Part shown: positions 2,461 to 4,414 of the stretch, piece after piece
Numbering within the stretch: the first letter of the stretch is position 1
Layout: each line of letters opens with the position of its first letter
Assembly: GCA_019914995.1 (NCBI GenBank)
Contig: CM034138.1
Coordinates: 310,001 to 374,000, forward strand
Direction: 5' to 3'
Length of the DNA: 64,000 nt
From: Acanthochlamys bracteata
Lineage: Eukaryota; Streptophyta; Magnoliopsida; Pandanales; Velloziaceae
The notes under the pieces: generated by a model
What the model was told of the DNA's origin: nothing
Database searches by the model: none
The model's input: the letters and a program-made list of their open reading frames with translations, nothing else
Translations under genes and position numbers: made by a program

Positions 2461-3454
2461 AATACACAACACAACAACAACACCAATCAATCAACAGCGA
2501 TCGCCCGCCCGCCCGCCAGCCTCCCCCGTTCTCTCCTTCTTCTTCTTCTTCAGTCAATGAACCAAAACCCAATCAATCATTTTAGGTAAGTAAACCCTTG
2601 TTCAAATTCATCATCTTCTTATTCTCTCTCGCTCTTATTTATGGTTGTGGACAACTTCAAATATAGAGCTTTCGTGTCACCTGCTTCCACGCCATTATCT
2701 TCATCATCATCATCATATCGCTACTAGCTCTTCTCGATATATATATTGCAAAACACAGATTCGTATAGAAATTGCTTTCTTTGATAGGTAGTATAATGAA
2801 AGGAAAAGGAGAGAACTTCAATTGGCCAAGGAGTCGTTAACTTGGTGCATATATATATGGTACGCATTATTATTGTTCTTCTGTTTCTACCTTGCTTGCG
2901 TTTGTTTTTTTGGGATATATTGATTGATAAAGGAGTAAATTAATGAAATGGTTTATAACAGGTTTGCTTGCTATGCATCTACTGCTGTCGAAAGAAACGG
3001 ATCATGAAGATAAGAAGCACTACCGATTGAATCATCCATCCATCATTCATTATCACTATAAAGTAAAGTAAAGATCAGAAGAGCTAGAAAGCAAAAGCAG
3101 CAGCAGGAACAATCCAAGTAAAGAAGCAAATTTAATGCAAAGATTTCATTATTAATAATTCATCTGCTTCCCTCCTTTGCTTAGATATCCGAGAAGAGTA
3201 GAACAGAGAAAGAGCGAGGGTATTACAAGTTGTCATCAATCGATCTGCTGCAGGTCTATCTGTTGTCAGTCGGTGATTTCAGATAATTTCCGTCTTTTCT
3301 CTTTTTTTACCACACCGTTACATAGTGCTGCACAAGGTAGTGCATTGCTAAACACAGCAGAACAAGAAAACAAGTCCAAAATCTTTCTCCCTAACTAGTT
3401 CAAAAAGACAAGCTTATTCTTCTTGTGTGTTGGGTTTTACATACTTCAGAAGAG
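2460..3454 (+). promoter_or_regulatory. Probable 5' leader of the AHL gene with a leader intron
   Basis: A pyrimidine-rich, CAACAA-rich tract (about 2460-2585) resembles a plant 5' untranslated region and ends in a near-perfect donor, AG|GTAAGTA, with GT at 2586-2587. A good acceptor, TACATACTTCAG, ends at 3449, with CTAAC (3391-3395) as a possible branch site. Removing 2586-3449 would place the conserved AHL N-terminus six bases into the second exon. Other acceptors (near 2962 and 3253) are possible. An ATG at 2557 in the leader would start an upstream frame overlapping the AHL frame after this splice. Inferred from sequence only; no transcript evidence. Confidence 0.45.
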
Positions 3455-4414
3455 CTGGCAAACCGTTGGTGGGGAGGCAGTGCAGTGATGGGAGGGGTCG
3501 ACCCGGTTGCATCCGCATCGCCGGCGATCCCTTCTCTCCATCTACGAAACCCAGAAATCGATCACAATCATTTCTACACCATGCAACAGAGACAATCAGA
3601 AGTACCACCAGACCCAACAACTCCCAACAGCAGCGGCAGCAACCAGAACCAAACCAACGAAGACGAAGACAACGCTGACGCGGCTAACCCTACTTCCGGC
3701 AACAGTGGCGGTTTTGCGTCTTCCACCCGTCGTCCACGTGGTCGTCCACCGGGTTCCAAGAACAAACCGAAACCACCGGTTATTGTAACACGTGAAAGCC
3801 CCAATGCTCTCCGATCTCATGTTCTTGAGATTGCGAGCGGCACTGATATCATGGAAGCGATCTCTTCTTTCGCTCACCGACGCCAACGCGGTGTTTCTGT
3901 GCTTTCAGGTAGTGGAGTTGTCGCTAACGTTACTCTCCGGCAACCAGCTGCGCCGCCGGGTGCGGTAGTTGCCTTGCGTGGAAGGTTCGAGATTCTTTCG
4001 CTCTGTGGTTCTTTTCTACCACCGCCGTCTCCGCCGGGAGCAACAGGGTTAACTGTTTATCTCGCCGGAGGACAAGGACAAGTAGTCGGTGGGAGTGTTA
4101 TGGGAGAGCTGGTTGCTTCAGGGCCTGTAATGATTATAGCTGCAACTTTCGCTAACGCAACATACGAAAGACTGCCGTTGGAAGACGAAGAAACGCCGGC
4201 GGAGAACGCCGTTCAGCCGCCAGCAACATCTGAAGGACTGCAGCAGAGTCCGCCGGGAGCTTCCGCCGGTGTCGGGGGCGGAGATCCTTCTGCAATGCCG
4301 GTGTATAATTTGCAGCAAACCATGGTGAGCAATGGGTCGCAGATATCATCTCATGATGTGTTTGGTTCATGGGCTTCTGCTGCTGCTGGTTCTCGTCCAC
4401 CTCCGTCTTACTAG
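3455..4414 (+). CDS. AT-hook motif nuclear-localized protein, AHL15-like
   Basis: Intronless clade-A AHL. AHLs bind AT-rich DNA in the nucleus and, through the PPC/DUF296 domain, form multimers and recruit partners that affect chromatin, growth and developmental phase change. Counting from the CTG at 3455 (319 residues): conserved N-terminus ANRWWGG (2-8), type-I AT-hook [17 protein letters not shown] (about 92-108), PPC domain (about 119-240) with GRFEIL, and an acidic then proline-rich tail ending RPPPSY. The N-terminal match to AHL15 proteins begins exactly at the CTG, where relatives have ATG. The frame has no ATG between the stop at 3392-3394 and the ATG at 3488; starting at 3488 gives 308 residues and loses ANRWW. 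CTG has G at -3 and G at +4. Family assignment is firm; the start is unresolved. Confidence 0.93.

Follow-up and report, generated by a model that had tools for sequence, protein, structure and literature searches.

An AHL gene and its duplicated sister genes very probably start translation at a CUG codon kept through gene duplication

The window, which is the whole stretch of 64,000 nucleotides analysed here (bases 310001-374000 of contig C13, from a genome of 195.5 Mb in 557 contigs whose source organism is, to judge from its genes, a plant), carries an open frame of 339 codons (3395-4411, closed by a stop at 4412-4414) that encodes a protein of the AT-hook motif nuclear-localized (AHL) family (locus L019; Table 1). 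AHL proteins are DNA-binding regulators of hypocotyl growth, of flowering and of ageing, and the coding sequences of AHL clade A are without introns. In the window gene, an AT-hook with an R-G-R-P core precedes the PCC domain, as is expected of AHL clade A, and the whole protein lies in one open frame, which matches the intronless organization of that clade insofar as it can be read from the frame rather than from a cDNA. The closest clade A proteins are presumably Arabidopsis AHL15, AHL19 and AHL20, or AHL25 in the case of one further pair of genes described below (L017/L018). The AHL15, AHL19 and AHL20 proteins resemble the window gene in that an R-G-R-P AT-hook is followed by one PCC domain in a single open frame and in the A-N-x-W-W motif, but they differ in that this motif follows an ATG-coded Met, whereas a CTG stands in its place in each such gene found here. 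The window gene departs from the clade A pattern in the codon before A-N-x-W-W, and this is a departure of the start codon and not a family-defining AHL feature. The original prediction, that a CTG at 3455 with G at both -3 and +4 occupies the position expected of an ATG and that no in-frame ATG occurs from the stop at 3392-3394 to 3488, is borne out by the sequence in coordinates and context alike (bases 3452 and 3458), and the same CTG recurs in all eight such genes found. A search of solved structures gave no matches, and a tRNA scan of the window (bacterial setting) gave no genes.

Table 1. Features of the AHL gene and its leader, in window coordinates.
Feature	Coordinates	Strand	Basis
Candidate 5' leader intron(s), GTAAGT donor at 2586, AACAG acceptor to 2961	2586..2961	+	Consensus and similarity to L020
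In-frame TAA closing the frame upstream	3392..3394	+	Sequence
Leader stretch of 32 bases up to the CTG, identical in the duplicate L020	3423..3454	+	Alignment
AHL coding sequence from the CTG, 319 codons and stop	3455..4414	+	Open frame, PCC domain
Proposed CTG start codon, with G at -3 (3452) and +4 (3458)	3455..3457	+	Same codon in 8/8 sister genes found
Initial 78 bases of the frame, with reduced synonymous change in codons 2-14 and a somewhat stabler predicted fold (z about -0.9)	3455..3532	+	Comparison with synonymous recodings
A-N-R-W-W block right after the CTG (GCA AAC CGT TGG TGG)	3458..3472	+	Unchanged across the six aligned genes
First in-frame ATG (codon 12), flanked by G at -3 and +4; may start a shorter form	3488..3490	+	Sequence
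AT-hook core R-R-P-R-G-R-P	3728..3748	+	Translation
PCC (PPC/DUF296) domain	3812..4153	+	Pfam PF03479, E 2e-22, residues 140-253

A search of the genome for the PCC domain gave 42 matches, and the regions of 20 of these were fetched, the other 22 being mostly partial matches. Among the 20 regions, a W-W N-terminus is present in eight AHL genes, which form four duplicate pairs. The sequence L-A-N-R-W-W is found in the window gene (L019, contig C13) and in L020 (C14), L014 (C10), L021 (C15), L013 (C2) and L016 (C1), and L-A-S-S-K-W-W in L018 (C20) and L017 (C19). All eight genes have CTG as the first codon, with A at -4, a purine at -3 and G-C at +4/+5, and in none is this codon ATG. From the upstream stop to the CTG, no in-frame ATG occurs in any of the eight (read directly in seven and, for L021, from a gap of 21 bases). 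As is expected of a main open reading frame with a non-AUG start, conserved protein sequence lies between the in-frame upstream stop and the first in-frame ATG, and a near-cognate CTG in favourable context heads the conserved N-terminus in 8/8 genes. Since all of them come from one genome and make up only four duplicate pairs, they cannot be counted as eight independent cases. Whole-genome scans with exact motifs, which a gene with an altered motif could escape, identified 16 matches to A-N-x-W-W with any first base, none of them led by ATG; six are in AHL genes, all with CTG, and ten lie elsewhere (nine with TTG, one with CTG). The corresponding scan for L-A-S-S-K-W-W gave two matches, L017 and L018. 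An ordinary conserved ATG start is present in eight other AHL genes, again in four pairs (MDPAAVA, MDPISAS, MAGLDLG and MATN), so the CTG start is not general to the AHL family or to the assembly. The departure had been taken for an oddity of a single gene, and it turns out to be common to the set of eight genes found.

In the aligned sequences, conservation rises at the CTG. Over 300 bases of leader, the members of a duplicate pair share 46-72% identity, with gaps of varied length, compared with 80-90% over the first 150 bases from the CTG. Gaps in these 150 bases are multiples of three in three of the pairs, and a base-level alignment of L013 and L016 over the same region splits them as 3, 7, 2 and 12. 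The start codon itself is CTG in 6/6 aligned genes, and none of the nine other invariant leucine columns uses a single codon; CTG accounts for 14 of the 141 internal leucine codons in seven of the CTG genes (L017 left out). One codon is used throughout in 7/77 invariant Leu/Ala/Gly/Val/Pro/Thr/Ser/Arg columns of the six genes, the start being among the seven. Codon conservation over the start block had been proposed as a check on the original prediction, and with the four CTG pairs pooled, synonymous change in codons 2-14 is about four times below that of the remaining codons (3.5 changes in 33.5 sites, or 0.104 per site, against 276.3 in 680.8, or 0.406; binomial P 0.00025). When the three intact CTG pairs are taken singly, 3-9% of the 13-codon windows further along show as little synonymous change as the first one. 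Near-start synonymous change is also reduced in the four ATG-start pairs, pooled in the same manner (9.0 in 40.7, or 0.221, against 264.7 in 726.8, or 0.364; P 0.036), of which two are as low as the CTG pairs, with 1.0 change in about 10 sites each, and the contrast between the CTG and ATG groups is modest. Only the first 48 codons of L017, whose frame breaks later, entered the synonymous counts, and 80 of its codons were taken for Ka/Ks.

The first 78 bases of the frame are predicted to fold more stably than synonymous recodings in 8/8 CTG genes (z from -0.91 to -3.19, mean -1.69), and z is still negative in 8/8 with the CTG held fixed in the recodings (-0.96 to -2.99). In the ATG-start sisters, the corresponding mean z is +0.39, with 2/8 negative, and the pair means of the four CTG pairs all lie below those of the four ATG pairs. 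Further downstream, the mean z of seven CTG genes ranges between -0.83 and +1.14 over the next seven windows, and among the later windows of the ATG genes, one averages -1.05. L017 entered this test with its first window only, and L022, L025, L026 and L028 lie outside the ATG control set. The strong signal is confined to L013 and L016, the other six CTG genes having z from -0.91 to -1.83, and with plain base shuffles over bases 0-80, the z of L018, L019 and L020 comes close to zero (-0.30 to -0.42). A short hairpin near the start (bases 6-48), predicted in the six A-N-R-W-W genes, was rejected as its stability is not above that of synonymous recodings, and so was one RNA fold common to the six aligned genes, in which 9/16 predicted pairs are disrupted in one or more of the genes. 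In the folds predicted for the four duplicate pairs, 0/90 base pairs are broken and four change on both sides, a weak indication given that each fold was predicted from the same two sequences. A hairpin downstream of the start is said, after Kozak, to aid recognition of the start codon, and the predicted folds give a hint that structure downstream of the CTG may help CUG recognition in these genes. The fold and synonymous-site signals are compatible with a regulated CUG start and are no proof of regulation.

The leader of the window gene probably holds one or two introns within 2586-2961, on the basis of consensus sites and similarity to the duplicate, and an inner second donor is possible. 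At 2857-2871 and at the matching place in L020, the sequence ATGGTACGCATTATT is conserved between the duplicates and may hold this second donor (ATG|GTACGC). The 300-base leaders of L019 and L020 are 72% identical overall, and the identical 32-base stretch at 3423-3454 could serve as a cis element. Over the 500 unspliced bases inspected upstream of the CTG, the leaders carry several short upstream open reading frames (uORFs), all of which end before the CTG, and AUGs in the leader would reduce the scanning that reaches the CUG unless they are dealt with by introns or reinitiation. A conserved upstream frame was considered and rejected, the peptides of the window gene and its duplicate not being conserved by eye. 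The uORFs at offset -90 in L013 and -113 in L016 encode the somewhat similar MEVVIDLIKKQQ and MEALMIILKKLQGKKP and end about 51 and 62 bases upstream of the CTG, respectively. Depletion of out-of-frame ATGs between the CTG and the first in-frame ATG, with none observed in six genes where 2.38 were expected, did not reach significance (P 0.062), and L017 and L018 have one such ATG each before the first in-frame ATG.

A leader with probable introns raises the alternative that splicing joins an exon with an upstream ATG to the frame immediately ahead of the CTG, which would then be an internal leucine codon, and sequences resembling acceptors (TTCAG and GAAGAG) do occur upstream of 3455. We therefore scanned for splice models of the form ATG..GT-AG..CTG with near-consensus donors up to 1500 bases away and an ATG within 200 bases of the donor. 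Such models can be written for L014 (nine), L019 (eight), L020 (nine) and L018 (six), and one of them (ATG GTA CGC..) occupies corresponding positions in the window gene (offset -598 in L019) and in its duplicate (offset -559 in L020). However, the putative exon shared by these two genes was rejected as coding, since it is without protein constraint (nonsynonymous change 0.31 against synonymous change 0.23 per site, over 15.5 synonymous sites). No near-consensus model adding an in-frame ATG exists for L013, L016, L017 or L021, that is, for 4/8 of the genes, and in L016 an in-frame TGA lies 12 bases upstream of the CTG with no AG in between, which leaves no acceptor by which a GT-AG intron could join an upstream ATG to the frame. 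The residues encoded upstream of the CTG are, by eye, unlike between subfamilies, and an internal leucine codon is not expected to remain CTG in 8/8 genes. We consider it improbable that the CTG is internal to a protein begun on an upstream exon.

Translation could instead start only at the ATG at 3488, the preceding block being a conserved leader element and not protein. This ATG has a good context of its own and recurs at the same offset, as codon 12, in L014 and L020, and a nucleic-acid element would also account for the low synonymous change after the CTG. Against this, the A-N-R-W-W residues are constant between subfamilies while their codons vary (GCG/GCA, AGG/CGT), and the first in-frame ATG is found only at codon 32 in L013, 36 in L016 and 58 in L021. 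In L013 and L016, the 30 codons from the start to the first ATG align as protein (Ka 0.12, Ks 0.54), and the distances from CTG to ATG (93 and 105 bases) differ by 12, a multiple of three. An exclusive start at 3488 is, in our estimate, as improbable as the upstream exon. That the CTG is an assembly or base-calling error, or the mark of a decayed gene copy, might be entertained in view of the broken frame of L017 and the altered AT-hook of L021, which suggest that some members may be decaying, but the identical CTG occurs at eight separate loci on eight contigs, and the window gene compared with its duplicate L020 has a Ka of 0.048 and a Ks of 0.53, as under selection. Such an error or decay is barely credible as an explanation, and from the comparison of these loci the CTG start looks like an old, kept feature.

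Weighing these alternatives, we hold it very probable, from the comparison of the sequences, that the window gene and its sister genes are initiated at CUG and that this start was kept through gene duplication. The original prediction had offered initiation at CUG or at the ATG at 3488 as two options, of which CUG is now strongly favoured because the block before this ATG evolves as protein, because the CTG is fixed in good context in the eight sister genes found, and because in L016 an upstream ATG cannot be supplied through a GT-AG intron; the two are nevertheless not mutually exclusive, and AUG 3488 may give a second, shorter product. In the scheme that we infer, scanning ribosomes would recognize the CUG from the bases around it (A at -4, a purine at -3 and G at +4), perhaps slowed by RNA structure just downstream, which would aid recognition. 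The initiator Met-tRNA would decode the CUG, such that the protein would start with Met-Ala-Asn-Arg-Trp-Trp, the initial Met probably being trimmed. Only part of the ribosomes would start at the CUG, and those skipping it could proceed to the in-frame AUG, at codon 12 in L014, L019 and L020 and at codon 32, 36 and 58 in L013, L016 and L021, respectively, and give a form without the W-W block. Given the uORFs of the leader, reinitiation or leader splicing should also be considered in this scheme.

The CUG start proposed for these AHL genes is a new case of an already known kind of start, that of AGAMOUS, where the codon is ACG, and of RpoTp. In PMC3022604, AGAMOUS of Arabidopsis is described as translated exclusively from a non-AUG codon, and the RpoTp genes of Nuphar advena and tobacco as CUG-initiated plant nuclear genes; for Nuphar RpoTp, changing CUG to CAC abolished plastid import of a GFP fusion. 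As described there, RpoTp is like the AHL genes in having upstream stops, no upstream ATG and a CUG heading a needed N-terminus, but it is unlike them in that single genes with an organelle transit peptide are concerned, whereas here duplicated regulator genes carry a short W-W block. AGAMOUS is likewise a plant transcription regulator with an obligate non-AUG start, but with another codon and in another protein family. Few plant genes dependent on a non-AUG start were known as of 2010 (PMC3022604). In plant initiation profiling, CUG is the commonest near-cognate start (PMC11062462), and in Arabidopsis N-terminal proteomics, 25% of the novel N-termini come from near-cognate codons, in an A-rich context (PMC5461538). 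The near-cognate starts reported there share with the AHL genes the A-rich upstream context and a purine at +4 (PMC11062462, PMC5461538), but many of them are alternatives beside an annotated AUG, whereas in the AHL genes CUG replaces the expected AUG throughout a duplicated gene set. Neither AHL nor AT-hook appears in the main text of PMC5461538 or in the main text of the ESUCA uORF paper. We found no report of non-AUG starts in AHL genes in the open-access papers searched, a scope outside which van der Horst 2019 and Li and Liu 2020 fall, and matches there to the motif strings ANRWW and ANPWW are unrelated by title.

The three intact CTG pairs have Ks values of 0.53-0.62, and comparisons between the A-N-R-W-W pairs give nearly saturated values of 1.8-2.3. 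In a tree built from 18 AHL cores, the pairs are supported and the order of the subfamilies is not; its best form has two changes of the CTG state, and from these sequences that state may have arisen once or more than once. Prokaryote genome contigs and viral contigs, scanned once each, gave no relatives. It is conceivable, though we rate it rather doubtful, that the CUG start is ancestral in a large AHL group of flowering plants and was kept through gene and genome duplication in four pairs (three or four subfamilies) since it sets a low, tunable dose and the ratio of long (W-W) to short forms, with the RNA structure of the first 78 bases being part of the control; were this so, the ATG of Arabidopsis AHL15, AHL19 and AHL20 would be a later change. 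With a shared CUG start, the dose and the N-terminus of these AHL proteins may be set at translation initiation. Annotation based on ATG would remove 11 to 57 residues from these proteins, the conserved N-terminal block included, and the eight duplicated CUG-start genes offer a natural experiment on why such starts persist.

Two members of the set have altered coding sequences. In L017 (C19:6768000-6773000, minus strand), the CTG-led frame ends after 81 codons and the PCC domain lies in another frame, the break between start and domain being due to gene decay or assembly error; in its duplicate L018, the CTG start and the PCC domain lie in a single frame. The AT-hook of L021 (C15:7052300-7057300, minus strand) reads R-S-R-G-R-P, and this gene is without the codon-12 ATG; its Ka with its duplicate is 0.129, compared with 0.048 and 0.057 for the other two intact pairs.
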